From NCBI GenBank assembly GCA_032358255.1, contig JAULBX010004777.1, positions 62,001 through 126,000 of the forward strand: a stretch of DNA of 64,000 nt, in the 5' to 3' direction. This document shows positions 4,082 through 64,000 of this stretch, in pieces. Under the pieces are notes generated by a model that did not search any database, was not told the origin of the DNA, and saw only the letters and a list, made by a program, of their open reading frames with translations. The position numbers were made by a program, and so were the translations under genes. Position 1 is the stretch's first letter. Each line of letters opens with the position of its first letter. This stretch comes from Heterotrichella gracilis. Taxonomy: Eukaryota > Sar > Xanthophyceae > Tribonematales > Xanthonemataceae.

Positions 4082-4942
4082 CGTACACGTGCATATAAGA
4101 ATTGGTTTTCAACTGATATGTACATAGTGGCATATGCCTTTAGACAATTGTTTTCAAATGTGACGAAGTTCTGTAGAGTCCACTGCTTTTGGTAGAAGAA
4201 GAAAGAAAGAAAGGGAACGCACAGAGGCGCAGTTAGGGGGCCACTGGCTCGCACCAGGGCACCACTGCTTTTGGTAAATTATGAGGTTTACAGTCTCAAA
4301 CTGAGTGTGGTGCGCAATCAGTCTCAAGACTGTTAAGAAAATATTTTCATGAGCCTCCATTGAGCAATGCACAGCGTGGTGGGGTCATGACACTGTTTGT
4401 GGGGGATGAATGTCACAGGAGGATAATCTGGGGGATCGTAATCGGAAGGGTTGCTGCTGTATAACTATATATATATACTGGGCCCCACTGGCAGTGGCTC
4501 TCAGAAAAGAGAAGAACAAGATGGCCTAGCAACCACGCACAGCCCCCATGCAAAAAGGGGGGCAATTAGGAAACATGTCCCTTGCAAGGCATCATGCATG
4601 TGGTAGCATGTGTAGTGGTTTGCTGAGGGAACAGTGGAACATACCATTAAAGGTGCGGGGGCCTAGAAAAAACTACTCCTCCCTGCAGGCAAGAGGGGCC
4701 CAGTCTGGGAGTGGGCACAAGGCCCTCATTGTCCATGGCAAATTTCACAGCGGTATAAGAAATTCACACAAGAAAGCAAACATGTTTATACCTTGCAGCA
4801 GCCTAAGGCTACCAAACCATTATTACTATACTATATCGTTGCAGACACAACAACCCCAACGGCTTTCAAGCAATAATACAAAATGGTACATGGGCGCCCA
4901 TGGCGCCAATAGCTGCCTCGCCAGCTCAATTTAAGCTGCGCC
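4082..4942. other. Intergenic region
   Basis: Lies between the convergent F-box gene (plus) and the BORCS8-like gene (minus). It holds a short direct repeat around CACTGCTTTTGGTA (about 4180 and 4262) and an alternating TA run near 4467-4478. No gene is recognised. Confidence 0.4.
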
Positions 4943-6347
4943 TCACCCGCGGCACTGACACCCCACCCCCCACCCCCTGCCCTCTGATGGGGCTGCTTGC
5001 ACGACTCCCCACCCGGCTTCCCCCATCCCCCACAGCACTGGGGCGGCGGGGGGACCACCACCAATCCGTCGCTGCACCACCCCCGCCCCCCACCTGGCTC
5101 CGCTCGTGCGCTGCCAGCTGGCGGTTGCACTGCTCCAGCTGGCGCTGCATGTATTGCAAGGTATGGGACCCTTGGTCCTTGAGGTAGGCGACAGTGGTGG
5201 AGGCGGCTTCGGCATCGCTGCGCGCGTTCTGGGTGAAAGGGGGGAGGGGGGAGGGGTCAAGGTGGTGGGGGTGAGAACGGATGGGGTGGGCCAAGTGGCC
5301 ACAGGTAATGGGAAAGAAGAGGTCGGGGTACGGGAGGGAGGCGATGGCAATGGGGTTGCGGTTGCACTGTCCCAGCTGGTGCTGCAAGTGGTGCAGGGCA
5401 TGGGGTCCTTGATCATTCAGATAGGTGACAGTGGTGGAGGCGGCTTGGGTATTGCTGCCAGTATCCGGGTGACAAGAGGGGTGGGGTTGGGGGTTCATGA
5501 CACATGGGGTGGGGTGGAGTGGAGGAGCAAGGGCGGGAAGGTGCCGAGGCGAGGAAGAGGGGGAGAGGCAAAGGTCAGGACAGGGGGAGGGGACGCAGGG
5601 CAGGTACAGCTTCACTTGGACAACATGCATGTGGCATGCTGCTGCAGCCGAGTAGCTGCCATGGCACAGCGTGCTGCACGTGTCCTGAATGATCAAGGGC
5701 CCATGTCCCCTTGAGGGTAATTCAGTGTATGCAAACACATACCTGGAAGAGGGTAATCGGCACATTTCAGGGTTTTAGGCATGAAGGTATTCCTGGTGCC
5801 ATATGCCAATGGGTTAGGGATAAAAGTTGGATTCAAAGGCTAGGACTTTCTGCCCACCTGCACTGAACCTGTCAGCTCAGCCAGCTTCTCTTTTGCAGCC
5901 ACCAGCTCCTCAGCAGACCCTCGAACATGTTCCTGAACCCCACACAAGGGTTAAGGGTTTTTCAGGGGCTCGATACTACCAAGGTGGCTAAAGTGTAAGG
6001 TTGTACGTTTGACGAGCAAAGACAACTGCTCTGAGAGATAAGTGAGGTGCAGGGTGTGCCGCGTGTGTGGGTAGGGCAGCTGGTGTCGACCTGTGGCCAT
6101 GCGGATGCAACATGGCCCATACCGCAGACGGGGAAGCCAGTTAAAGTGCCTCGCTGCGCAAGGGTCTCCTGAACTAGGGTTTGATGCCATGCGAGCACCA
6201 GTGCCGTGGTTTTGGGGTCTGGGTGCACCCTGACAGGGTTGGATGGGGTGTAGGGTTTTGCCCGCACCCGCACGTAGAATAACCCCACCGAGGGTTGGTT
6301 GGCCAGCTGCTTCACTGCCAGCTCAGCAGCAACATGGAGGGCGTGCA
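4943..6347 (-). CDS. BORCS8: BORCS8-like subunit of the BLOC-one-related complex (5' end incomplete)
   Basis: Recognisable exons on the minus strand are 6268-6347, 5858-5932 and 5094-5228, possibly ending in a tiny exon at 4943-4954 (stop 4943-4945). The joins give ..ELAVKQLANQPSVGLF.. followed by REHVRGSAEELV. This parallels the family signature LANEPSVALYRLQEHVRRS of animal BORCS8 (MEF2BNB), which is a subunit of BORC, the complex coupling lysosomes to the Arl8/kinesin machinery. Exon lengths 80, 75 and 135 keep one frame. The third exon is helical (AEAASTTVAYLKDQG..LEQCNRQL), as expected for the C-terminal part. The first exon is not certain. A candidate is 6789-6873 (ATG 6871-6873, donor G|GTACG), which joins in phase. 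The intron holds a dead copy of the third exon. Assignment rests on one conserved block, so it is moderate. Confidence 0.55.
5373..5470 (-). pseudogene. Decayed duplicate of the BORCS8-like third exon, in the intron
   Basis: The minus strand reads QAASTTVTYLNDQGPH..LGQCNRN, closely matching AEAASTTVAYLKDQGSH..LEQCNRQ of the exon at 5094-5228, about 240 bp away. The acceptor of the working copy reads CACCCAG|AAC. The equivalent site here reads CACCCGGATA, so its AG is gone, and the donor is also missing. It therefore looks like a tandem exon duplicate that no longer splices. A 14-nt inverted match to its centre lies at 5685-5698. Confidence 0.6.
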
Positions 6348-8869: not shown

Positions 8870-11800
8870 CTAGCTGGCGTGCTCTGATACAGTTTCCTCC
8901 CCAGGTGCGGATGCCAATTTCCCCCTTGCTGCAAGCGCGTCCCGCTCTGCCTGAAGCGCGTGCTCATGTAGAGCTGCCACGATGAACTCCGCCATCTTGG
9001 TGCGCAGGCGGTCAGGCTGGGTGTGGAAGAACTCATACCTGTGCAGCAGAGGGGAGTTCTTGACATGCGCGTCCTTGGGCGGATGCAGCAGCACACAAGT
9101 AAAATAACCAATGGGGGTATGGCGCACAGCCGTACAATTCCCACAGCTCATCAAGCATGCACACCCTGTATAGGGCCTAAAGCTTCTAGGCATTTGCTTG
9201 CATGCAACTGCTCATGCATATCTGCTCATTCACCCTTGAGCATGCTAGCAGGGTGCCCTACAACCCTAGCAGAGCATCGTAGAACCTAGCAAGATGCCCT
9301 CAAACCTAGCAGGGTGTCGTGAAACCCTAGCAGGGCTCCGCACCTGCTGAGCATGGCGTCGTAGAATCCTAGAAGGGTGTCGCTGCGCCGCGCAAACACC
9401 AGCATGGTCTGGAACCTCCCTGACAGCGAGGGCGGGGCCACATCGCTCCCGCTGTCCGCCCCCGCCCTGGGGCTGCTTGTGGCAGCCTCCAGGAGCACCT
9501 CGTCCAGCTGCAGGGCCACTGTGTCCATCCAGCGGGTGATGGTGCGGGGGTCTATCTCTGCGTGGCCGCCAGGTGGCGGCTCCATGAGCGCCGGGGCAGC
9601 GGCGGCGGGGCCTGCCGTGGGGTCAAGGATCAGCTTTTGTGGCTAGGATTTATATCTTATGAAGAGGCAGGGTGCAAGGTAGGAGTGGCGCATAGATGGC
9701 AGGTGACTATTATAGCATTTTGGAGTGGCCAATTAAGCTGTGCATTGCGCCATGCAGCTCATGGGTGCACGCGCTACAAAAGTTACAAGGTGGAGCCTGG
9801 GAATACATGGTACACATGTCGCCTTGCATGCACAGCCCTTTGAAGGCACCAGGATAACATAATGAAAATACATCAAAGTTGCACACCCAAATTCCTAGCC
9901 ACCCACCTCCCCGTTGGCCAAAAGACACAGTGCCCAGTGATGGCTCCTGGAGCACGCTGCGGGTTTGTCGGCTGGCCTCGGCGCCGCCACCTGCCTGGTA
10001 GGGTTTCAGGGCGTCTTCCAGGAACTGTCGGCCCAAGCTCTGTGCGCGTCGCAGAGCATGGCGGTCTCCAGAAAGCGCTGCAGCAGGAAGTAAGGGTTTG
10101 GTCAGCGGCCACGTTCCTGGAACCATACATTGTTTACTCAAATGCCTAGGGCTTGAGGAACGTCATTAGGGTGAGGTGGCATGAGGGATGTGGCGCCCTA
10201 CATCACACTGATAGAGCTGCGTACAGAAAGGTGTTTCACCACAGACTGCTCCCTTCACAAGTTTTGCACCTTGATGTGGAACTACCAATTCGCATGTGGG
10301 TAAGTGGTTACATCTAGTTGCAGAGCCTGTGTGAAGGAAGCAGAGGATACATGGCCTGCCCTCGATTTATGATCTGTGATGCGTGCATATAAGGCTAGGC
10401 CAACTCACCTGAGCGCAGCTTCTTGGGCGGAGGGTGCATCAGCCCATCATCAGAGTTGTCCGAGGCGTGGTCCGCAACCTCCGCGCCCTCCCCATCACCG
10501 GTGCGCAGGCGGCGCTTGTTGGGCGGCAGGCGCTGCGGAATCGCGCCGCTCCCCTCCCCAACATCGTCATGACACCCCCCCTCCCCTTGCACCCCAGCTC
10601 CCCCCCTGGCCACCGGCTGGGCCCTACTTGCCACCTCCAACGCGGGCCGCACGCTGCGCGCCACAAACCGCGCCTCCTCCCCGTGATTCTGCACCACATT
10701 TTCCCCCTTGTCCCCCCCATGCTCCCCCTGGTGCTGCGCCAGGTCAGCGGCGAGCTTGGTGGCCACGCGCGCGGCTGCCCGGTCCCTCTTCAGCTCCTGC
10801 AGCTCCTTCTCAACGTCCTCAAAGATTGAGGTGACGCTGATGCCGCTGCCCTGGTGGTACAGCGGGTGCGGGGGCTTGTAGTGGTGCAGAAGCGTGCTCC
10901 CAAGGTCAAGCATCTGCGCAAGGCACACAGGCATGAGTGTGAGTGCAGCGGGCAAGGGGGCATGGAGTACAATCTGTGGCACAGCATTGCATGGCAGTGC
11001 AGTGCAATGGAAGACATGGGTTCCCTCAAATAGCTGGGGGGTGGCGGGAACGCCAGCCCTGTTGCTGGGTGTACACATGGCCAGCCCAGGTGTACGCAGC
11101 AGCAACAAGTACAACGCTCCCCCTCAGTGCACCGCCACATTGGTACCACGTAACAGCCAAGGCGAAATGTGTGCATGCCATGGCGCCATTCCATTGCCCG
11201 AAACTGCCACACAAATCCCCCTGTTATTCCATCCCTGCGCACGCACCTCGCTGTCCCCAAAGTGGGGAGGAGGGGGGGACAACACTGAGAAGGTAGCGGG
11301 GGACACAGGCTGCGCGTCCTCTGCGCCCAGCGCCGGCACCTCAGGCTTAGCTTCACCAAAGTCCAGCAGCTCCACGGGCAGGTGCAGGTCCTCCACAAAG
11401 CGGTCGTTGTACCGCACCTGCGCCACCACACACTTGTAAGCATGCGCCCTAGGCAGCAGCATGTGGGGTGTATCAAATGCATCTCGCTCGAAAGCAAGAT
11501 GTGAGTGTGTGAATGCTTGTTGCCAACTGCTTTTCACCACCAGGTTTCAAAGACGACCCGTGTTTTGCCTGCTTGTTGTTATTGTAGTTGTATGCTGAGT
11601 GTCTCGCCATGCTTCAGTGTGAACATTGGCATGCATTGATCCAGAGGTCACTCCGAGAAGGGTGCTGCGGCGCGCACGGACTGGGTCCCTTGTGGCGTCG
11701 GAGGAAAAATTAGGAAAAACCCCAATCCTAATGCACATTACGAAACAGAATAGAATAGTTTTATAATATACACTAAGATATTAAATAATGGGAGAGCTCC

Positions 11801-15160: not shown

Positions 15161-18100
15161 TCAAACCCCCTCCTCATCAATACTCATCTCCCCCTCCGCC
15201 TCCACCTCCGCCTCCGCCTCCCCATACACAGCCACCTCCTCCTCCTCTGCATAGCCCTGGCCGGGCTCCCCCTCAGGCTCCCCAGCATCACCCCCCTCGT
15301 CCTCCTGATCGTCTTCGCTCCCCTCCTCCAGCTCCTCCATATTCTCCGGCACTGCTGACAGCTCAGCCTCCCGGGTGGCGGGCACGTAGGTGGCAAAGGT
15401 GCGGTTGATCAGCGGGCCCTGGAAAGCACACAGCAGAGTCCTTTCATAGATGAAGCAAGGTGGTCCTATGGGTGTGGGCATCGGCGTCATCCAAGACAGT
15501 GCAGTTGGCCCAAACTGGAGTGCAGCTTGGCAGGGGACCTTGCATGGTTTACAATACGCAACACTGCCGCATGCCACCATCACCTCCATTCCAGCTTCAG
15601 CAGCACACCCACAAACACTCAAACACTCCCAAGGGCCCCCGCCACTCCCCCACCTTCCCCCACCACCCACCGGGTTGATGCACACGCAGTCCTCAAAAGT
15701 GAACGCCGCCTGCGCCAGCGAGTCCCCCAGCAGCAGCATGTGCGGCAGCGGGTACAGGTGCAGCGCGTGGTCGTGCTCCCAGTACACGGGCTGCGCCTCC
15801 AGCGGCATGGGGCACAGGTGGCTCTGCTGTAGCAGGGTGCCGCACACCTGCTCAAACACCTCCTGGGGTGAGCAGGTGTCGGGGGAGGTGGGGGGGCCTG
15901 CGGGGGTGGGGAGGGGGCCGGTTCGGGTGGTGCCTGTGTCAGGGTCAAATGGCTGGGCATTAACTTGGGAATAGTGTTCCAAATCAGTTCGATTAATTGT
16001 ATTCCTATCACAAACAATTCCTCTATGTCTGTGATCTGCAATGCGCCAGTCACACACTGCAGGTGACTGTATGAGCAAGTGGCTGAATTAGATAGCACTG
16101 AAAATTCCAGTTGTATAAAGACAGCCATGCGGCAGCTGGGGCAGCGCACACATGCATCTACTGCGACTTGATTCCTCCCTACCTCCTTCTATGCTGGGGC
16201 ATTGTAACAATTAATATAAGTGACAACCTTGCATGCAGCGGGGCAGACACACACACATATCTACCGCCATTAGACCCCGCCTACCTCCTTCTGCGTCATC
16301 CACCATGCGGCTCACGGGCGGTAGGAGGCACCTCCGCCGCATGCGCAGGCCCATGTTCTGCCTGAAAAGCACGGCGTGCTGCGTGCACCAGCGCAGGTGC
16401 GCGGGGTTGGATGTGAAGATGCACTTGGGCACCCGCTCCTTCAGGGGCGCGACCAGGGTGGCGGGGAGAGGGGGGCGCGGGAGGATGTTGCCTGGGCCGG
16501 CATCGCCGGGGCCCGGGACAAACACAAATGTGGACTCCTCCTACAGGGGTGAAGGCAGGTGAGTTGTGCTTGATGCTGGGTCATGCACCAATGTGGCGGG
16601 ACGCATGGGCAAAGGCGTGTTCCTGGTGGCCCTGTGCCTTGTTATGTTAAGGTGGTTGGCAGCGCTCACACAGTTAGTCAAATGTGCATGGTCATGCTGG
16701 ACCTAGCAGGAGCTGGTGCGGCTGTTAGATGATGGCATGTGGTTGCACTGTCGGGAATAATAGCCGGATAGCCCAGGTCAAACCAGCTGTCACTACTGTA
16801 GCAGTGACGGCAACCACCACAGACATTGAGAGAATTAAAAGCGACGGTGACGATACCATGCAGTCATGTCACATGCATGCCACAGGCTGCATGTTGCATG
16901 GCTGAGCGCACCAGTATGCGTGGGTAGCGGCAGATGATGTCGGCAAGGGCCACAAAGTTGGCGCGGATGGTGGCGTAGTCTGTGGTGCGGCTCACGCAGC
17001 TGTAGCTCTGGAAGTTACCCATGAGCACAAACACAGGGGGGACGCTGGCCACCGACTCAAAGCCTGCATGTGAGGAATGGGAGGGGGTGGAATGCGGCAC
17101 AGCGGGTGCGCAGCGCGTTGCTCAACATCCTACTTGGCTTTAATATGCAATAAACATTTGCATACACACAAGAATGTATTTAGTAACAAATCGTTAAATG
17201 GAATTGCATCCATCGTGCCAATGTATGTATGTGGAGGGTGTTGCCTACTAAATAAGCTGACTCATGTTGGCATCGTGATTGTTGCCATAAGCTGCAATAT
17301 GCAACGCCCTGCTTCATCAGTTTGCGACCTGGTGATTTAAACATTCACCCTTGGCCCAGGCCTGGGCCCCGCACCAAGTGTTCTCCCCTACACCCTAGCA
17401 TCATCCCACCCTGAACCCCAGCAACCCACCTTGGAAGATCTTATCCAGCTGCTCCAGGATCTGCGATTTATCCAGCCACACATCCGACAGCAGCACCAGC
17501 CTGTCGTCCTGCGCATCGATCTCGTGTTCCAGCACAGCATCCAGCTCGCCCCCAGTCATGGGCGCACCCCCAAAGAAGTTGAGCCCCTTGGCGACCTGGG
17601 AGGAGGCGTCGCGGGACTCCACAGGGGGGAAGCCCAGCGCGTGCACCTTGAACACCCCGCTGTGCTGCAGCTGGCCCTCAGCCACCACGATGCAGTTCTC
17701 TGCAGGTGGACAGGGGGTGGGGGGTAAAAGAAGGGTGAAAGGGGGAGTGCAGTGTGTAGTGTAGCATGCCAATGTGATGCAACCTTGGCCATGGCGTTAT
17801 GACAGTCAATACCTTGCGATTGCCCAAAATGCCCTCAAAGCAAATTGCATGGCATCATGCATAGAAGTACCACCATACCAGGACCCTTTCAGGACGAACA
17901 TGTCCACTGTCCATTTGCAAGCGGCAGTCTGGCATGCGCTTACCTATGAAGAACCCTGCTGTGGTCAGGGCCTCACTCAGGTCCAGCGGTAGCGAGCCAG
18001 TGAGGTCTTCCAGGTGGAACTTCCCCTCCTCCATTTGAGTGATGCTCCCCAGGATATACCGTGTTTGCCCCACCAGACCCAACAATGCCTTGACATCCGT

Positions 18101-37292: not shown

Positions 37293-40200
37293 ATGTCGGG
37301 ACAGACGTACAAGGTGGCTGGATATGATGTGCGCTTCCCGCACGCAGCTTATGGGGTGCAGCTTAGTTTTATGGGCAAAGTGCTGACCACCCTTGATGGG
37401 AAGAAGAATGCGTTGCTGGAGGCCCCCACGGGTTCTGGCAAGACCCTTTCATTGCTCTGTTCTGCTTTGGCCTGGCAGTTAAAGGTCAAACACGAGAACT
37501 CTGCTTTTTTGAATGAAATCAGCGATGACCCAAAACTCGCCCTGAACAGGGCAGAGTCTGAACCAGAAGCAGGGGAGGTGGAGATCCGTGAAAGGCGGAA
37601 GAAGAAGCAAACACCAAGGATCTACTACGCAACCAGAACCCACTCTCAAATTGCCCAGGTCTGGTGTATTTCATGGCTGATAGTGCTCATCTTGTTGTCT
37701 AGTTTTCATAGTGACACCTGGTCTTGGCACCATGGCTGAAGCACAACACCTGCTTCTTGCTTCAGGTGGTCAAAGAGCTGAAGAGGGCGGGCTACTCCCC
37801 CAGGATGGCCATTCTGGTAGGCATCTGGGATCTCTAGCTGAAGTTGAGCTCCACTGGTAATCTAGGCACTAGCCAACAATCTTCCCGCCTGTGCAGGCTT
37901 CCAGGGAGCACTACTGCGTGCACAAGACTGTGTCAAAAGCCAGCAACAAGGACGAGGAGTGTGACAAGCTGATCAAGGAAGGTGGTGGATGCAGATTCCA
38001 CGGCAACGTCACCAAGCTGTATGGTGCTGCTATCAGCCATGAGGTATGTGCTCTTTGCGGTGGCAAAATCACATTATGGTGGACACTGAAACACCAATCA
38101 GCTTGACATGGGAAATCTGTTGGGGGTGACCGCTTGTCACCACCTGACAAAAGCTAAACATTGTCGTCTCAACCCAGCGTCTCGCTGCACGCCCAAGCTG
38201 AAGAACCATTGGTTCCAGAAGCACACACTGCCCTGATTGTGACCAAGACTTCTCTTGCAGGTGCACGACATTGAGGATTTAATGAATGCTGGAACTCGTC
38301 TCAAAGCTTGCCCATACTTTGCAGCAAGGCACTTTGCCGCTGAAGCTGAGCTGATCTTCACCCCCTACACCTATCTCCTGGACCCAGTCATTCGGAAAGC
38401 AATGGATGTGAATGTGGATGATGCAGTGATCATCTTTGACGAGGCCCACAACATTGAAGATGTCTCAAGGTGAAACACATTATAATTGGCATGCCTAAAA
38501 ACCTGGCTGGCGCTTCCAATTGCCAAGCGCATGAACCTCGCTGGCCCCAACTGGACCTATTTGATCCAATGCTGACTCCCCGATTCCCACATCAAACCCA
38601 TACCCCAACGGCTCAATCTGATTTGGTAGCCACACCCTTTGAACAATTCTCGCCCCACCTGTGGTCTGGTAGCCACACCATTTGACCAATTCTCCCCCCA
38701 CCGACCAGGGAAGCAGCCTCTATGGACATTGAACTGGACGTCATGACCGAGGTGCACAGCGCCCTGGCCATTGCTGCGCAGCTGGGCGTGGTGCCTCACA
38801 AGTACAAAGTGATGGCCACTGCTGTGCAGAAGATCGTGACGTGGCTGCGAGGCACAGCTGATGGCGGGCAGTTGCAGCAGCAGGGGTTTGAGTGCTTTAG
38901 CAGCACGTACGCCGGCGCAAAGGCACGTATCTCCGACCTTAGGGAGTGGCCCTTTTTGCAATCTTATTAGAAAGGGAACCGTGGGCTGTGCACATTCTGA
39001 CAAATTGCACTGAAACAAGGATGGCAGACGGCATGCAGACAAAACCCAACAAACTTCTAGTCCATGCTGACGTTGTGGCACCCTTTTCATGCACAGGCAA
39101 TTGAGCAGCTGGATGCTGCTGGCCTGGGCTCTGGAGCTGTGAGCGACCTGTGGCAAGTCCACCAGGAAATCAAGAAAGCGGAGGAGGAATTTGCACAAGC
39201 AGCTAGTGCCAAGGCTGGGGAGGCTGCGGCAGCCAGCGGGGGTGCGGGGGGCATGAGCGGCATGGCGCTGGGAGCCATGTCCCGCATCCTGCAGGTCCTG
39301 CAGATGATGTACAAGGTATGTTTATGGTTTACTTTCTGACGTATTGTAGTACATGGAGGTGGAATCCGCGCAAGGACTAGCTTGCATCAAATGCAGCTGT
39401 TAGGCATTCCAATGCTGATACACTCTGGTCAAATTGTAGTGTAAACGGGGGTGCAGTGTGCAGCATGACCAATTTGGCCACAATGTATCACGCTGTATAG
39501 ATTGGTCCCGCAATCCGTGGCTCTTGCCCTGTGATGAGGCATCCCAGGAACCCTAACCTGTATGGTGGAATGAAATACAGTGAAACGCTACATTTACATA
39601 CAACGGCTTGTTGCCTAGGGCGGCGGGAAGCACGAGGAAGACTACCGCCTGGTCATCCAGAAGGTGATTCGCCGCAACCCCAACGGGGACAGCAAGCTGC
39701 GCAACAAGGGGCGCAAGTTCAGGGGCATGCAGGAGGAGAACTCAGGCGGGGAGGTGTCCGGTTGGGCTAGCAGCTTCTCGCTGTGGGCCCTCAACCCCGC
39801 TGTGGCATTCACCGATGTGGCTGAAAAGGCGCGGTCCATCATATTGGCCAGCGGCACATTGGCACCAATGGAGTCCTTTGCCTCTGAGGTAGGTGGTGGA
39901 CATGGATTTCTTGGCAGCGTGTGGGTTGGCTGATTGTTGTGTAGTTGTACGGCTATCATGTAATTTTTAATACAAAAATACCATGTGTTGCAATCCTCCT
40001 GATGTTGTGCAAGCAGTTGCATCCTCTCCCTCTCTTGGCCATCTTCCAGATGCAGAGGAGTATTCCTGCATAAGGTTGCACCTGATAATGAACTCAGTAG
40101 GCTGTGAATGTGCAGCTGGGCGTGGTATTTGAGACCCGGCTGGAGGCGCCACATGTGGTCAACATGACCAAGCAAGTGTGGGCTGGGGTGGTCCCATCGG

Positions 40201-46864: not shown

Positions 46865-49800
46865 CTACATCTGCGGCCGCGTCTGCACCACTGTGATGTT
46901 GCCCTCAGGGTCCACCACCCCCTCAACATCCTGGGCTGACCCCAGCGCCTCCTCAATGGCGGCACCCACCTTGCACACCCGGGACAGCAGATCGCGACGG
47001 AAACCCTCGTCCTGCGGCCATGGAACAAGAAAACAGTCAGGCCAACAAGTCCCAGGCAAGCACATGGATGACACGCACGTTGTCTTGAGGATATCAAAGA
47101 TTTAAAGCAGCTACATGGCCCCAACAGCAAATGCAGGTCTGGCATCCACATGAGCAGCGCCTGGCGCACGCTGAGGCAGATATGCAGCCGCAAACAGGAG
47201 CCGCAAAGCAGGCAGGGTACAGCTCCACATATCCCGCTTGCTCTCACCGTCATGATCTTGTCCGTCATGTAGTCCACCTTCTCTGTGAGCGTGGCATCCA
47301 TGGTGATGGAGTCGTACAGCCCAGCACCCGCGTACCCCTCCAGGTCCTCACCGTTGGAGTCTGATCGGAAGATGAGCGACTCAGGCACAAACATGCCGTC
47401 GCTCTTGGAGGGGTACAGCAGCACCTGCGGATAAGACGGGGTGTTATAAAAATATGCTTGTATTGTTTTATTGCCGGTTGAGTTCTACGATCAGTCCTAG
47501 TTACATTCCAATAGTACCTGTCCATTGTTCCACTGCAGCACCTGCACATGATTCTTCAGCACAGCAAAACTCGTAATGCTTGAGCTTAAAACAAGCTACA
47601 CCGTCCACCCAACACCCTACCTTGGGGTTCTCCAGGTCGTCCTTGCGCCCCGTGAAGGCCAGCGCCGACCCCTGCACCTGCCCGCTCACAATGCTCTCCC
47701 CCAGGCCGCGCACAAGCTCCGCGTAGATCTCGCCCTCGTCGTTTGTGGCTGGGTTCTTTGTGTGGATGACGTAGGCGTACTGCGCCGGCACCACGCGCTG
47801 CACCAGCACCGCCATGCGGATGGACATGAAGTCCAGGCCCACCTTGCGCATGCTGATATAGGCGCGCTCGTTGAACTTGGAGGCCCACACGCCCTGGAGG
47901 GAAATAAGCACAGAGGGTCAGGCCAACCACAAGCATAGGTGCATATATTGCACCCTTTTTAGGGCTTGGGGATGAAGGCTGACAAACATGCACAGGGGGA
48001 CACACAACCTCGCGCAAACATCAGCCCGTCACGAGTGTACCACAACCATCCAGGTTCACACAACTCCTGCATGCTGCCGCTCCTCTCCCGCCACCCACCT
48101 TGAGGGCCTGCATGGCCATGCCCCAGCGCTCCTCGGTGTCTGGCACGGGTATGCCCGCAGCCGCCATGGCCTTCTTCAGCTGCTTCTGCAGCGCGTCCGG
48201 CACCACCACCTGCATGGCCACCTCGCGCGCCTTGCCCAGCTGCTCCTCAGCGGTCTTCAGGTTGATGTCAGCCACCTGGGCAAGGGGGGTAGGGTTTAGG
48301 TTGACGTCAGCTGCATGGTTTTAGGGTTCAGGTTGGTGTCAGCCACCTAGGTAGCAGGGTTGCCCTTCAACCACCCATGTAGAAGGGCTAAATGATCAAG
48401 TGTGGATGTAGGTGGAGCGCGGAAAGGTATTACAAGGCGCCAGATCAGAACAGGCATGTCTGTTTTCGCTCAGTGCATGCAAGGCCACAGTGTCTGCAAG
48501 GCCTGGCTACTACTCTTGCTACGTGGCAGGGGTGCGTGTCACTCACCAGGTCATCCAGCTGGCGGGCTAGGGTTTTGTTGGCAGGCGCCTTCAGTGCCTG
48601 CTCAAAGGAGCCGAAGGGGATGGTGATGGAGGCGGGGAGGGAGATCCAGTCGGGCAGGCGGCCACGCAGGCCTGCAAGTTTGAGTCATTAATTGAGTCAC
48701 TACAATCTTAATGGTAAGAAAACAACAACTGATATTTTAAACAAGGGCAGAATGGCGACGGGCCAAGGGCTGTTTGCATGCCAGAACAGGTAGATATGCC
48801 TGATGCTGGGTTGGCACAAGCTGCACTCCAAACCTCCTGCTGCCATCACGCACAACCCAGGTTCTTTGGCTTGCCCCCCACCATCCCCACTCGCTCACGC
48901 TACTCATGCATGTTCACCCTATTGCTAGACCCTAAACCCTAGCACACACCTGCCAGGTTCTTGGACTTGCCCCCCACCACGCCCTCCTTGTACTCGTCCA
49001 TGGTCACCACCCACTTGCCGCACCACTTGGGCACCGTCACCTTGAGCATGTTCTTGCGGGGGGGCGCTGAGCCATTGCCATTGCCGTTGCTGAGGCTGCC
49101 GTCGGAGGGCGCCCACTTGACTGCCCCAGCGGCTGTGGTCTTCACGCTAACCACCTTGCCAGCCTGAGAAGAGAATAGATGGTTACAATGCGCTCCAAGA
49201 GCATGACCACATGCGCAGTCAGTCCTGGGACAGCTACGCTGCTTGTTGGACCAACTTGACAAGGCAAATAAATAAGGTAGGTCACTCAAGCTGTTCATGC
49301 AATGCAGAGCACTGCGAAGGGATGCACAATCAGCCCCCACCTGCATGCCCCACACCACATGCAGTGCCCAATGCACGATGCGCACACCCCCAAGTCTGCA
49401 CAGGCATCGGGTGCAGCAACTCCATCATACAATTGCCCTCCTTGCTTGCGGCCAGCCAGCCAGCCACCCAAACCCCACACCCGTAGCGCAACCAACCCCC
49501 TACCCACCCCACCCACCTCCTGCATGAGCTCCTGCAGGGGCCCCTCCTCGTGGCAGGTGGCGAACAGGCAGTGCATGTTCCTGGCGCGCACGCTCACATG
49601 CGACAGCACGTCTGGTGCGTCAGGTGTGAGCAGCGCCACCACCCCCTCGGGGATCTCCTCCTCCCCAGACACCCGCTTGGCGATCAGCACGGTGGGCACA
49701 TCATAGTCCTGCAGAATTTAGGGTTTAGGGTTAAGGTGGGCACCACGCAGTCCTGGGGAGTTTAGGGTTTGGGTTGAGGTGAACACATCATAGTCATGGG

Positions 49801-52800
49801 GGGCGGGGCAGGGTGCTTACTTCATTGTACCCAACTCTCAAAACCACACTCTATTGGTATGCTGCACTACATGCGCCTCGCAGACGGCTTGACGCCGTAC
49901 ATGCACAGCATGGCGCAGTCTGAATAAGGAATGCTGTGCGCCGAACCCTCCCCGGCTCCCTTCCACACAAACATGCACAACCCCCACCCGCCAGCCTCCC
50001 TGTCCCATCCCCCACCCCTCACCTTCTCCTGCACCTCGTGCAGCCCATTAACCACCTCCACCACCCCAACCACCTCCCCAGGGCTGATGACCTGCCACGC
50101 GCCCAGCTCCGCAGCAGACCGGATAGCCGGCTCGAACGACGACAGCGCCAGACTCACTGCAAACGCGGGCCCGCCGCGCACCACCTCCTCGGCGAACAGC
50201 TCCACCGCCCACTCGTCCACCCCAAAGGCGCGTCCAAAGCCTGTGGCCACTGGGTCCAGGCGGGAGGAGATGCGGTCCGAGGTTTCGGCCAGGGCGCGGC
50301 GCACGCGGTCAAGCACCGCCATGGTCTGCAAAGCAGGGGGTGATGGGATTGTTAGTACCCAAATATAAATGTATTATATATTTTCATTGACATTAGGTTA
50401 TTTAACATTAATTTACTCAACATTATTCATGGAATTGTATTATATGACATAATCCATGCTCAAAAACACGTTTATATTGCGTTTCTATACGTGATGGAAG
50501 GCGGTACACCGCGGTAGTTGCCATCTCCCCCCTACTTGGTACTTCCTCAATTGTTTTTTTTCCTGGCACCCACCTTGAGCGCCTGGTCCTTGTTTGGCTG
50601 GCCCCCCTCGCGCACCGCCCGCGGCAGGTTGTTCCACGCGTTGAGGCAGAAGCACAGCTCCTCGTTGTCGCCCACAGACATGATCAGGTTCAGCAGCAGG
50701 GGGCCGATGAGGGGCGCTGCGCCGGTGCCGGTGGCCCCCGCTCCGCGCTCTGCGGTTGTGCGGATGACGTTCTCCAGGGCCAGGTCAAGGTACAGCAGCT
50801 CCCTGCAACATTAGGGTGTAGAGTGGTTGGCTGGTTCAACATTATCAGTGGGGCAGGCGTGCTTTTGCTGGCTCTGACGGCGCAATTCCACTGCGAGGGG
50901 CTCCTCAACAGGTGGATCAACATCATCCAGGAATTTTTAAGTACCAAACACGTGTGGAATGCTTGACCAGCCTCCTTGATTGCCCTCCTTGCCAACACTA
51001 GTGGATGCATCCCACATGGGCCAGACATGGGCCTGTGACTGACACTCGCGCATACCTGTTGCCTGCCAGTGCGGGCTGGATCTCAGCGCGCGCCTCCACC
51101 GCCGCCTGGATGAGCGGCAGGATCTGCGAGTCCTTGCGGTGCGACAGCACGTACCCCACCCAGCCCTTCGCAGACCCGGGCAGCACATTGCCCGCCTCCT
51201 TCACAGAAGCCTGCAGGTCGGCGCCTGCACACGATGCGCCACTAGGTGAGGCTCGATAATACGATGCGCAGCGATGACAGGCGCACCACCATGCTCATGA
51301 CAGCGCATGTATAGATTCCCTACCCTGTCATTTTGTAGTTTGGAGATCCAGTGCATTGCCCACCAGCAACACATGCTGGGTGTACCACGTATAATCCCTC
51401 GCCAATGCTTTTTGGAGCACTAGCTCAGCAAGGGAAACAAGCACTTGACGACCTGGCAGTACGCACATGAGTGCACCCTTGAGAATGCCCAGGTAGTTCT
51501 GGAACCCCCTGATCAGCGAGTCCTTTTTGCTACCCTAAAATCCCAAACCCTAACATTTGCAATGGATTGCACACCCCCGCGCACCTGAGTGCACCGCCTT
51601 GAGGATGCCCAGGTAGTTCTGAAACTCCCTGATCAGCGAGTCCTTCTTGTCGGCGTAGAAGTGCGGCTCGCACACAATGGCGCGGTCAAAGCTGGTCAGG
51701 CGCTGGCGGGTGATGCCGGCGTCGGTGAGCACGCGCCAGTACTGGCCCTGGTCCCCGTTGGAGCGCAGGAACGCCAGGTAGGCCTCGCAGATGCCCACGT
51801 CGTCTGGCGTGGTGTTGTTGTGCAGCTTCTGATGCCACTCCTCCATCCAGGTGCCTTTCACCTCGGAGATCCTGCGCAAATTGCGTTAGGGTTCAGGGTA
51901 ATGATCGAAAGGGGGAGGGGAGCCGAAGGTGGAAAGGCAGGGCAGGCAGGGGAGGGGCTGGAACATCCAAGACCAAGCGCAAAGTACTATCTGAGTGATG
52001 CAGAAGGGTTGGACGGGAGAGAGGATGCTAGAGGAACCCACTGTACTCAGTCCTGTGTGGGTGCTGGAATGAGGAGGGTGCAGGTGCAGAGGGACTCACT
52101 TGTTGCGGTGCATGATGTTGAGGATCTCGTCACGCACAGCCTGTGCGTTGCCCCCACGCCCCACGGTGGTCAGCATGAGGCGAGCCCACTCCTGCGCCTC
52201 GCCACCAGTCTTTGCGTGCGCCTGCACAAAGCCAGCAATGAATGATTAAAGCGGGGATGGAGGGATGGTTGGAATACCAGTTCCAAGGCTCAAGGTATGC
52301 TGGGTGCGCCCGCACAAAGCCTGTGGCAACGCCCTCCTCTTTGCTTACTGCACGCCTGGGCTCCAGAGCTCAAAGGCTGGCAGCATAGTGCTTTGCACGA
52401 AATTTCTCGTCCCCGCACCTCTGCAATTGCGTATGTGAGCCTGGACTGCGCCGCCCCCAGGATGCGCGGCTGCGTGTTGTAGTTGCGCTGCCAGGTGAGC
52501 TGGCGGATGGCGCTGTACCGCAGCCACACGTAGATCTTCACCATGGCGTCGGTCACATCCTCAGAGTCGCCCTGCAGACCACGATATGCACAGTTAAGGT
52601 TACTGACATGCAGCCCAGAACGCCAGCCAGATTAGCATCCTGCCAACTCACGCCGCACTCGAGGCTGGCCACGCACCGTGCTTAGTACAGTGCTGTGAGA
52701 CTGTGGGTCACTGCTGTCCTGTCATGACTAACAATCGTGGAGATCCAAGACAGAGAATGCAATAGGCCCATGCACAAACATGCCCACAATTCCAAGCCCA

Positions 52801-59517: not shown

Positions 59518-62500
59518 TCACCTGCTCACCGTGCTCCTCCCAAACATCTGGCGCTCCAGCTCCAGGTGCATGGCGTTCTGCATCTCCAGCATGGTCTTGC
59601 GGTTCACCTCCAGCTCCTTGAGCGATTTGTTGAGCAGCATCTCAAAGTAGTGCGCACGGCGGCGCTGCTCCTGGAGCGCAAAGCGCAGCTCCCGCTGCTG
59701 CGCGTACAGCTCACGCACCTCCTGCAAGGGGGATCACAGCGTCAGGGGTCAGGGGTCAGCAAAGAGTAACAGGGCCGGTAATCCAGGGCGATTCGCAACT
59801 GGCTGCAGAAAGGATTGTACCATCCTTCGAAATGTTTACAAATCTCCATGTCCGGTGCAGTTTGCAAACAATGTAGGGAGGGCAAGGCAGGGGTCCAGCA
59901 CAGGTGCCTGTCACGCGTGAGCATACCTCTGCCACCACGGCCTCCTCCCGCCCGGTCGCTTCCTTGACGGGCTGCTTCTTCAACTCCTCCTGGGCGGCCT
60001 GGGGGAGGCACAGCACATGGGGTCACATGGCAGTCAGAGTGGAATCGCACAGTGGCAATGGGCCAAATCGCAGGGCATCATGGCTTCCGCTAATGCGCAC
60101 AATACAACATGTAGGGCAGACCAAAAGGTCAAGTATGGAGCCATGCTTTGGTGTCCACATCCAGATGGCGCAATCAGAGGGGAAATTGTCAACAGTACAC
60201 GGCCAAAACCTATCAGATAGGTTTTACTGTAGGCAGCAGATGGTGCCACGTGTCCTCACCTCAGCTGCTGCCTGCGCTTCTTGCAGCGCCTGCTGCAGCA
60301 CACCAATCTCCTGCTCCTGCTGGCTCATGCACTCCTTGGCAGACTCAGCCTGGGCCAGCGCCACCTGCACAGAGGCATACACACAACTTGAGTACCATGG
60401 CAATAGAAACCCTGCGTACAGGTGCAGATGAGAACTACAGACACCCAACGTGTGCTGCGCATCCCAATCATTTAGGCAATCGTCATGCTCTACCCATGCA
60501 CACGGGCGCACGTGGGGACCAGCTAAAGCCCAATCACAAACTGGGGTGCAAGTGAGAGGTGATTGCCCATGGGCATACGATACTTACAGGTTTGCTAAAA
60601 GGGCCAAGTGAAGGCCTTGTAACCAATCTACAGGTACCCAACCACACCCAACTTTCACCACCCACCTTGAGGCGAGCCGCATCCTCGGCTGCCCGCTCCT
60701 GTGCCTCCTTCTGCGCCGCCTTGCGTTCGTGGATGGTAGCGTGTGCGCGCGTGAGCTCGGTTACAGCATGGGTCAGCTGCGTGCGCATGTCAGTCAGCTG
60801 GCGCCGGGCACCCAGGATCTCGTCTGCAGGAGACGACACAAAGTAGGGTTTAGCAATAATGGTTTCAAAACCTAAAGGGTCTTGTCAGCCTCAGGCTATA
60901 AAATCTGTCCCACTTGCACAATCACAGGGCACAACATTGCATGCAGCGCACCTCAGTGGGACCGCAAACCCTAAACCCTACAGCCCCGACCACGTACCGT
61001 TCTTTGTGTCCAGCTCTGTCTTGAGCGTCTGCACCTCCTTCTGGTTGGCCACCTTGAGCTCCTCAAGCTCCTGGCGCAGGGAGGCAACCTGCACAGGCAG
61101 CGCCACATTAACACATGGCAACACACAGTAGGTTTTGTACACACATCTCCAAAGAATGTAACCGCAACTGTAACTCTACTCCAAAGCACGTCACATCCAC
61201 AGCGTGAAGGTGCCGGGTAACAATTAATTGTGCTCTGCGCTCGGTGCCTACCTTTTGGATGCAAAAATCTGCCAGTAGGTCACACTGCAAAACTCACTCC
61301 ACACCACCATTGCACCCCAGCGCCGCCACCCCACCCACCTCCTTCTGCGCGGCCACCAGCTTCTGCTTGGTGGCCACCAGCTCGTTGTTGTCTGCCTTGA
61401 GCTGCTTGTTGAGGTTGAGCAGCGAGCGCTGCGCGTGCGCCAGCTCCATGCGCAGCCCATCCACCGCGTGCTGGTTGTCTGGCGAGGCCAGCAGCTGCGC
61501 CTGCAGCTCCTTCATGGAGGACAGGGCCTCGCCCAGCTGCTGGCGCGCCCCCTGGAGCTCGCGCTGCAAGTTCTCGTTGCGCTGCGGGGTGACAAGGGGA
61601 GAACATTAGAATATGAATGTACATGGCACTTCCTTTATTAAATCGATTGCGTAATGACAATATTGAGTACCCAACTAGTGTTGGCACGAAACTGCTTAGC
61701 GCCACAAGTGCAACACTGGCTGCTATCCTGGCCTGATTAACCTTCAACCCTGAGTAACAAAGGGCGAATCGGATAGCAATGGTCTGTTACGCTCTTTGTT
61801 CCTTGGCTCACCCTAAACCCTAACCCTGTGCATACCCTCATGCAACTCACCCGGTCCACCGTGCGCACAGAGTCGCTGAGCTCCGCCTCCCGCTTCCTGC
61901 TGGCGCGCATCTCCAGGGACATGTTCTGCAGGTCGCGCCGCAGGTTGGGCACGATGGAGGCATCCGCCGCGCGGCTCTGGAGGACACGGATCTCCTCCTG
62001 CAAAAGGGGGGCAACCGTGAATGCAATGATGTGTGCTTGACCCATCAGGAATCACCAGACACCACTACCACGGGCTGGGCGCGACCACATAGTGCGCTCA
62101 AGTCATGCACTGTGGTATATTAATGCTTTGTGTAGCGTTGACCCTCATTCATCAAAACACCACCACCCACCTGCTACACAGTGCTGCGTACATAATTTTG
62201 AGCCACCCCCCCTCCCCCTTCATTCAGCCACCTGGTACCCAGCGTTGACACCCCCATCGATGATCCATCGAAACACAAATGCCGCCATTTCCCGCTGCCC
62301 CCACCATGTAAGCTCCAACCACAACCCACCCACCTTTGCCTTTGCCAGCTCCTCCTGCAACTGCTTGTTCTCCTCCACCGACCCCCCCGCCTTGCCCTTC
62401 ATCTCCGCCACCTGGCGCCTGCTGGCATCAAGCTCCTTGAGCGAGGTCCTGAGCAGGCCCTCGTAGTGCTCAACCTTGCGCCGCTGCTCCTGGACCTCGT

Positions 62501-64000
62501 AGCGCAGCTTCAGGTCCTGGGGGGATAGGGTTTGAATGAAGGGTGCAGCTGGGTTGGAGGTGGATCATTTCTATGATTCATTTCTGTGACTTTCGCAATG
62601 GTTTCCTTGTAGCGCAGCTTCAGGTCCTGGGGGAATAGCGGGCAGCATATTGGCTGTGGGTTCCATTTTGTGCAGGTGCTGGGAATAGCTATACACGACA
62701 AATGTATAGTGGCTCCTCAACAGGGTTGCTCTGACATGCAACATGCACTGGAGACTCACCGGCTTGGCACTGACTGCCACCACGTGCGCGTTCTCCCGCT
62801 CTGCAAGTAGCTCAACCCTGGCAGCCTGCACAGGGAGGTACGCACATTACTGAATTGGCCCCGTCTAACCACAGGCAAACGCGACAGTGCATGACACCAA
62901 CGCCAGTAAAGCCCATGTCCTTCTCCATGCCATACGTGCGTGCGCGTATCGACGACCAATTGACTGGTTGCAGGCTGCACCCTTGAGCAGCCGCGCCTTA
63001 CCCACCCCCGCCAGCAGCGTGCCCCTGCACACACCCCCACCCCCGTCACGCCCCACCTTTGCATCCCCTTCCGCCACCCGTAGCGCCTGGTTGAGCTGGT
63101 CGATGGTGCGCTCCTGCATGCGCACCTGGGACACAGCCTGATCCGCCTGGCGCTGGAGTTGCTGCAGAACAAGGGGAAGGGTCAGATGGTGCTACAAATA
63201 CAGGGTACTTTTATTGCCTGTGGTATTTGGGATTTTCACATAACCTACTCATGTTTGAGACCCTGATTCCCCATGTGTGCAGGGACATCTCAGCACAATA
63301 CACCCCCCCAACATCCATGCGTGCTGCCAGATTCACTTCACTAGATCTGGACGAGCAAGCAATCTTGTGGTATGGTCTTTGAGCACATTTCATGAACAGG
63401 CGCAGTAAAACGTACATCAAGCTTTTGCAGCATCTCCTCAGATGGTTTTGTCTGCGCCGCTGACTGTGCCTTGACAAGCTGCGCCTCTGCCCGCATGACC
63501 CTGGAGCGCATGTCTGCAAGCTCGTTCTTGGCCGCAGTGAGGTCACCTGCAGGGCGTGGGAAGTAGGGTTTAAGCGTACATCAAAGGAGCTGCTTGTAGG
63601 TCTTGCGGTACTCAGGAGATATAGGGTTTAACTTTCATTAAAATCTGTAATGTTTTGAACCAATACATTAGTTCTGCGGGTGGTGGGTATGAGCTGACAA
63701 TGGTGCACTAATTGCAGGAAGGGGGGTGGCTCAAAGAGCTGTTGTAGCTAGTGTTTTCAGCAGCGAACCGGGCTAGCGGCTCTATGCTACCGTCCTATGT
63801 TTTATCTCATTGCCAACCCCCCTCCTGTGGCGTGTGAAGGACAGGAATGCATGGTGCGCGGCCACGGCTATGGATGCATCCCTCTAGGAGCACGCATATG
63901 ACTGTGACTCACCCTTCTTCTCGATGAGCTCCCTATTGAGCGCCCTGACCTCGTGGTTGGTGTTCTTGCTCAGAGCAGCAACCTCGTCCTTCAGGAGCTC
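59518..64000 (-). CDS. Long coiled-coil protein, C-terminal part (runs off the window)
   Basis: Twelve minus-strand exons visible: 63913->64000, 63416-63546, 63057-63161, 62760-62825, 62334-62516, 61851-61997, 61339-61581, 60998-61088, 60666-60823, 60260-60364, 59927-59998 and 59518-59721. Phases agree across all joins. The product is almost wholly heptad-like coiled coil (DLTAAKNELADMRSRVMRAE, VPNLRRDLQNMSLEMRASRK) ending FGRSTVSR. A set of five exons occurs twice in the same order. For example, LRYEVQEQRRRKVEHYEGLL..SLKELDASRR is matched by LRFALQEQRRRAHYFEMLL..SLKELEVNRK, and MSQQEQEIGVLQQALQEA by VSQVRMQERTIDQLNQALRVAE. No catalytic domain is seen. Such proteins are often cytoskeletal, centrosomal or Golgi tethers, but no specific family is recognised. 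Confidence 0.8.
62499..62634 (-). repeat. Duplicated acceptor edge in the coiled-coil gene
   Basis: The exon edge with its acceptor (AGCGCAGCTTCAGGTCCTGG, 62499-62524) is repeated exactly at 62609-62634 in the upstream intron, 110 bp away. The copy keeps a usable AG but leads quickly out of the coiled-coil frame. A CCCTA-type word follows the original. Confidence 0.8.

Follow-up and report, generated by a model that had tools for sequence, protein, structure and literature searches.

Why do several introns in a 64,000-nucleotide stretch of the Heterotrichella gracilis genome contain copies of the exon edges that border them, splice sites included? The window, by which we mean this whole stretch, is C50:62001-126000 (contig C50) from an assembly of 68.5 Mb in 903 contigs, and three of its four best examples lie in a gene for an alpha-glucan water dikinase (GWD), the product of which has plant-type domains. 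A first-pass annotation of the window had listed eight such places and proposed a local mechanism of intron growth by tandem duplication across splice junctions. The copies themselves were confirmed. The best clue to the mechanism, however, had been overlooked in that annotation: the filler between an edge and its copy is commonly a decayed telomeric TTTAGGG repeat. In our view, the exon-edge copies probably arose for the most part as scars left when double-strand breaks at exon-intron borders were repaired, with telomeric repeats being inserted in the process.

The comparison of own-intron with other-intron pairings, which had been put forward as a check, covered 287 introns in a sample of 183 kb instead of the whole genome, namely all of C50 (132,897 bp) and C10:50001-100000. 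A hidden-Markov gene finder self-trained on this sample produced 20 gene models, and all exon-intron junctions discussed here are its ab initio predictions. The models gave donors of the AG/GTGNGT type and the acceptor consensus TGCAG/G (slashes mark the junction), and the GWD model had no internal stops. We retained the 539 of 574 exon edges that were at least 30 bp long, dropped the shorter ones, and regarded a score of at least 15 between an edge and its adjacent intron as a strong copy. Strong copies were found at 32 of the 539 edges, as opposed to none in 10,780 pairings in which the intron came from another gene and was matched in length, one in 539 edges on the inverted strand, and one match among 365 exon segments located 60-120 bp from the junction. 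Thus, the check was passed, and exon borders together with their splice sites are copied into adjacent introns far above chance in several genes. Copy-bearing edges also adjoin exons of higher GC content at third codon positions (GC3; 0.808 vs 0.763, p = 3e-4), which might hint at a link with expression, but a high GC3 is likewise a mark of exons predicted with certainty.

The distribution of the strong copies did not agree with a mechanism confined to the window, which contains only four of them at 193 edges, whereas the remaining sample has 28 at 346 edges. Nor did the claim of six genes within 64 kb survive: at a score of at least 15, only model C50_g11, in which the gene finder fused the GWD and coiled-coil genes, was left in the window, with GWD2 (the second of the three listed GWD places) and SAND reaching 13. 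Copies were still present at 21 of 483 edges after the gene model with the most copies had been removed. Such fusions of neighbouring genes, as well as edge copies that were called as exons, for instance the short motifs repeated in one protein that we take to be a beta-adaptin, would have lowered the copy counts rather than raised them. A third sample, from contig C100, was left out of the intron statistics before counting (GC 36%, long open reading frames). Two open reading frames in G000:C100:20001-70000 match bacterial domains (RadC with a Strawberry-notch-type helicase, and SBBP with Por_Secre_tail); together with the GC content and the long reading frames, these matches indicate that the assembly includes a Bacteroidota-like contig and is therefore not pure.

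The structure of the copies was surveyed at 33 edges in 30 introns with scores of at least 14. The copies had a median length of 45 bp (10th-90th percentile 24-72) and the spacers a median of 55 bp. Twenty of the 33 consisted of edge, telomeric filler (at least two telomeric words) and edge again, nine had other filler, and four were plain tandem repeats. The earlier proposal of tandem duplication was therefore correct as to duplication, but the plain tandem form is the minority. Local duplications numbered 99 in a scan independent of gene models (86 and 13 after merging), compared with 0 or 1 in shuffled sequences. They fell into pairs of an intronic copy with a junction-spanning source (26), exon-intron (22), intron-intron (22), exon-exon (14), junction-junction (9), exon-junction (4) and intergenic (2) pairs. 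Of the 26 spacers in the junction-spanning class, 22 contained at least three telomeric words, and the density reached 102.6 words/kb, vs 14.9 in intron-intron spacers, 8.95 in introns overall, 3.08 in predicted intergenic DNA and 1.21 in exons. When windows equal in size and place were compared, with introns below 150 bp also dropped, at least three words lay beside the donor at 12 of 13 copy-bearing edges vs 21 of 220 others, and beside the acceptor at 12 of 15 vs 23 of 223, which pooled to 24/28 and 44/443.

Telomeric words also form clusters, 71 of which lie in introns and three in predicted intergenic DNA (shuffles, 2-11); the absence of all 74 from predicted exons is partly circular because the gene finder avoids stops. 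The intronic clusters are concentrated at predicted junctions, with 44 of 71 no more than 60 bp from an exon (31% expected, p = 7e-8), and flanking duplications accompany 26 of these 44 but only 3 of the 27 that are farther away (p = 6e-5). On the donor side, word density decreased from 20.5/kb within 0-40 bp to 5.0/kb beyond 130 bp (reversed words, 6.4 and 3.7), and on the acceptor side from 14.9/kb within 40 bp to 5.2/kb beyond 130 bp (reversed words, 4.2 and 3.1). This distance profile does not fit uniform insertion within introns. A smaller second rise at 100-130 bp from donors (10.7/kb) is what two hits on some junctions would produce. At one sampled locus (L048, about 1430-1560), a single donor-side edge is present in three copies with telomeric repeats between them, suggesting repeated hits on one junction.

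Exact telomeric repeats gave a similar picture. The first 30 (TTTAGGG)3 loci in contig order, which are not a random draw, represent 27 distinct loci with tracts of 22-45 bp. Twenty-five were in predicted introns, and 15 of these 25 had a predicted exon no more than 40 bp away (21% expected, p = 2e-5). Flanking repeats with a score of at least 13 were present at 12 of the 27 loci vs 8.5% of 2,239 control positions; nine of the 12 were near exons. Genome-wide, (TTTAGGG)2 has 5,629 matches and its reversed control five. Arrays of (TTTAGGG)8 occur on 11 contigs, on six of them in the first 200 bases of the contig and on five further in and in the opposite orientation, and the genome encodes a Telomerase_RBD domain. 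The arrays at contig starts, the plant-type GWD domains and the gene content together make the genome look green-alga-like.

We infer a staggered break from the edge-insert-edge arrangement, since repair of such a break leaves this structure. The broken ends would share an overlap of about 25-70 bp spanning the splice junction, and repair would place a short TTTAGGG run with some other bases between them, thereby duplicating the overlap on both sides. The exon-adjacent copy would retain the working splice site, whereas the insert and the second copy would turn into intron and then decay. The likeliest source of the insert would be extension of the 3' end by telomerase, followed by fill-in and end joining. 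A telomeric insert within a duplication would result if a 3' overhang were first extended by telomerase and then completed through fill-in by CST/Pol alpha-primase; CST also serves telomeres. The preference for borders could reflect targeting of transcribed exon edges through transcription or chromatin. Alternatively, exons might be hit at large, with survival limited to events that have a splice site in the overlap.

Plain tandem duplication at junctions by slippage or staggered-end fill-in, without telomerase and with the telomeric words as pre-existing bystanders, would be a simpler account, and the four edges with spacers of at most 5 bp and the nine with other filler indicate that duplication without telomeric sequence does occur. 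Words lying inside a duplicated unit should, however, have been copied with it, but the match mostly ends before them and one telomeric spacer is left. Moreover, duplications flank the telomeric clusters near junctions far more often than control positions (76/1,700 near junctions; 31/1,755 far from them). We therefore consider this explanation unlikely. Insertion of ready-made DNA, be it fragments captured from telomeres or a mobile element of the introner type with telomeric sequence, could likewise leave an insert between direct repeats and would account for the non-telomeric bases in the fillers. DNA transposons, though, usually leave target-site duplications of fixed length, and neither the wide range of duplication lengths nor the shortness of the exact repeat tracts favours such an origin, which we regard as improbable. 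A gene-model artefact might be suspected because the models were self-trained and partly fused, and because a stop-bearing telomeric insert could draw a predicted exon end towards itself. The empty control pairings and the homology at two GWD junctions described below argue against an artefact or chance. So does an asymmetry seen without any gene model, in which donor-like GGTGNGT within 30 bp of (TTTAGGG)2 is found 286 times upstream vs 125 times downstream, counts that include overlapping matches and chance. Chance or artefact is thus largely refuted and hardly credible.

The biased orientation of the words could be explained if they were selected splicing or regulatory elements (G-triplets at donors, C-rich words at acceptors, or telo-boxes) and the duplications were secondary. 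On the sense strand, 147 C-rich vs 25 G-rich words lie within 0-40 bp of acceptors, and 132 G-rich vs 100 C-rich words, a weak bias, within the same distance of donors. Genome-wide, with the same inclusion of overlapping matches and chance, the 286 upstream donor-like words compare with 162 opposite-strand donors downstream of (TTTAGGG)2, and acceptor words number 353 upstream in the C-rich sense vs 185 downstream in the G-rich sense. Nevertheless, words of either orientation are found at donors, the reversed control with identical composition shows little of the peak, and the words are tied to the duplications, as the pooled edge counts indicate. The bias may instead reflect where inserts are tolerated, since TTTAG is a decoy acceptor, and selection against such decoys alone could produce it at acceptors. 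We give this functional explanation only a slim chance.

Break repair with telomeric insertion remains the reading that we favour, and several points weigh against it. The insertion and the order of events would have to be read from the present structure. The junctions are ab initio, with homology behind just two of them, both in GWD. Nine of the 29 filler-bearing copies have no clear telomeric filler, and of the 15 exact telomeric loci that lack flanking repeats, 6 are likewise within 40 bp of an exon. The copies are unevenly spread among gene models, with 11 of 32 in one model and none in 10 of the 20 (permutation p = 0.0055). Finally, at both GWD1 and GWD2 the copy closer to the exon is the poorer match, unlike what a simple nearest-newest series predicts; because these two places do not fit, a series with the newest insert nearest to the exon was rejected.

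To assess the eight listed places individually (Table 1), each was scored against 60 dinucleotide-block shuffles of its own sequence. Seven exceeded every shuffle clearly: GWD1 (21.0; highest shuffle 10.3), GWD2 (24.5; 12.0), GWD3 (54.8; 16.2), the coiled-coil gene (25.0; 11.7), POLE2 (17.5; 13.3), SAND (21.5; 14.3) and FANCJ (29.0; 9.5). The BORCS8 place was marginal (10.8; 10.0) and lies inside predicted exon 4926-5684. In the best four, namely the three of GWD and that of the coiled-coil gene, the sequence begins within the end of a predicted exon and takes in the splice site. Both the SAND and the FANCJ copies are located wholly within predicted introns, and the POLE2 source copy has just 8 predicted exon bases, making these three weak examples of an exon edge; no telomeric word was found in the POLE2-region or FANCJ-region spacer. 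Homology supports two of the three predicted GWD junctions. The GWD3 junction (residues 186/187 of the searched piece) falls inside a match to the solved GWD 9ha9_A (residues 10-391), and the GWD2 junction (420/421) inside a match to the Pfam domain GWD1_pHisD (395-502), whereas the GWD1 junction (597/598) is outside the best-listed homology stretches. A fourth GWD copy, absent from the earlier list, was positioned from the intron coordinates.

Table 1. Exon-edge copies, fillers and related repeats in the window (window coordinates)
Feature	Position	Strand	Details
GWD1 source copy: start of GWD exon 48099-48275 with acceptor	48256..48280	-	
GWD1 filler	48281..48326	-	+ strand AGGGTTT at 48291, TTTAGGG at 48320 (sense strand C-rich)
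GWD1 extra, less similar edge copy within filler	~48296-48315	-	
GWD1 intronic edge copy	48327..48351	-	23/25 identical
Fourth GWD copy: end of exon 48950-49163	48857..48919	-	score 22.5; intron 48672-48949
Fourth GWD copy filler, between copy and exon			+ strand CCCTAAA at 48930
GWD2 source copy: start of GWD exon 49517-49708	49691..49708	-	
GWD2 filler with acceptor	49709..49734	-	+ strand TTTAGGG at 49717, 49724
GWD2 proximal intronic copy	49735..49752	-	14/18 identical
GWD2 distal intronic copy	49778..49795	-	16/18 identical; past second filler, TTTAGGG at 49761
GWD3 intronic copy: exon end with donor	51462..51529	-	63/68 identical
GWD3 filler	51530..51579	-	+ strand CCCTAAA at 51533, AACCCTAA at 51546 (sense strand TTTAGGG)
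GWD3 source copy: end of GWD exon 51585-51871 with donor	51580..51649	-	
Coiled-coil source copy: start of exon 62232-62516 with acceptor	62499..62523	-	AGGGTTT just past, at 62527
Coiled-coil intronic edge copy	62609..62633	-	25/25 identical
POLE2-region intronic copy of 16259-16292, donor region	16156..16190	-	27/34; source exon 16285-16540
SAND-region intronic tandem array	9245..9325	-	32/40 between two 41-bp units
FANCJ-region duplication inside predicted intron 38470-38708	38624..38701	+	32/35, 8-bp spacer

The first-pass annotation had also predicted decoy splice sites as a by-product, and these were indeed observed. Of the 15 donor copies that could be aligned, 10 had retained GT (four more could not be aligned), and AG persisted in 11 of 16 alignable acceptor copies (three more not alignable). 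The copies are 86% identical in the exon part and 79% in the intron part, as expected if only the exon copy is constrained. Intron growth, by comparison, remains plausible but was not demonstrated by length: among the 287 introns, the median was 295 bp for copy-bearing and 264 bp for other introns (p = 0.19), a difference that is not significant, and we rejected intron length as evidence of growth. Birth of whole introns from duplicated edges was likewise rejected as a general explanation, since an in-register repeat of exon end and intron end with a total score of at least 10 was found in just one of the 287 introns (0.16 expected). In that case, intron C50:21214-21480, the last 15 bases match the last 15 of the upstream exon (14/15), and the repeat is possibly a target-site duplication of a gained intron; it has no telomeric words.

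These results suggest an unusual route by which introns gather new sequence. If it is borne out, an edge, a telomeric run and a second edge would together be a dated, directional and recognisable scar, by which single events of intron growth could be counted. Telomere maintenance, break repair and splicing would be linked in a way that bears on the old question of the origin of intron sequence, and decoy splice sites would be a by-product of repair. Gene predictors would need caution as well, because in-frame edge copies resemble exons. A more far-reaching idea, which we put forward tentatively and consider rather doubtful, is that telomerase-coupled repair of staggered breaks, directed to transcribed exon edges or surviving only there, continues to be a main supplier of new intron sequence in this lineage. 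Introns would then grow inward from their splice borders, gaining with every event a telomeric tract and a decoy copy of the edge, splice site included.

Elements of this route have been described in other systems, which we compare on the basis of the available portions of the cited articles. In Daphnia, new introns and intron growth were attributed to staggered double-strand breaks (PMC4202315). As proposed for our sample, direct repeats from such breaks occur at and in introns, and passive lengthening of introns was suggested. The repeats that a new intron shares with an adjacent exon, however, measure 4-12 bp (PMC4202315), whereas the copies described here span about 25-70 bp and come with telomeric filler. 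Tandem genomic duplication of AGGT is a route of intron gain that similarly brings splice sites into an intron by way of duplicated exon sequence (PMC3443670). There, the two copies supply both splice sites of a new intron, whereas in our sample one border of an already existing intron is altered. Rogers and Bendich (2025; PMC11782384) likewise ascribed direct repeats no more than 80 bp from intron borders to break repair; those repeats of 4-30 bp (mean 11.4) bracket the intron, and the portion available contains no mention of telomeric filler. In mammalian cells, CST-guided Pol alpha-primase fill-in at breaks with 3' overhangs produces small tandem duplications (PMC8355091). The overhang is duplicated after fill-in and end joining, as proposed here, and overhangs of 43 bp were sufficient; neither a telomeric insert nor a link to splice junctions was found in the available text of PMC8355091. 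For Chlamydomonas reinhardtii, with the telomere TTTTAGGG, interstitial repeats are mentioned, and no link to introns was found in the part of the article at hand (PMC6549138). Among open-access titles and the openings of abstracts, no telomeric inserts at exon-intron borders were described.

The closest parallel is provided by primates, rodents and horse, in which short interstitial telomeric sequences were inserted at double-strand breaks (Nergadze et al. 2007, PMC2246262; PMC7215372), and telomerase is thought to add the repeats at these breaks (PMC2246262). Both cases have short internal runs identical to the telomere, none of them in exons, and for both, break repair involving telomerase has been proposed. 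According to the portions of the two articles available, however, only some of the mammalian loci have target duplications (6/130 in rodents, 4/25 in primates and 3/66 in horse), and the 31% of human loci located in introns were termed compatible with random insertion (PMC2246262, PMC7215372). Unlike these, 29 of the 71 intronic clusters in our sample are flanked by duplications, and most of these lie next to splice junctions. Telomeric insertions are thus known from mammals, and it is the clustering at exon borders together with the frequent long duplications that sets the present case apart.

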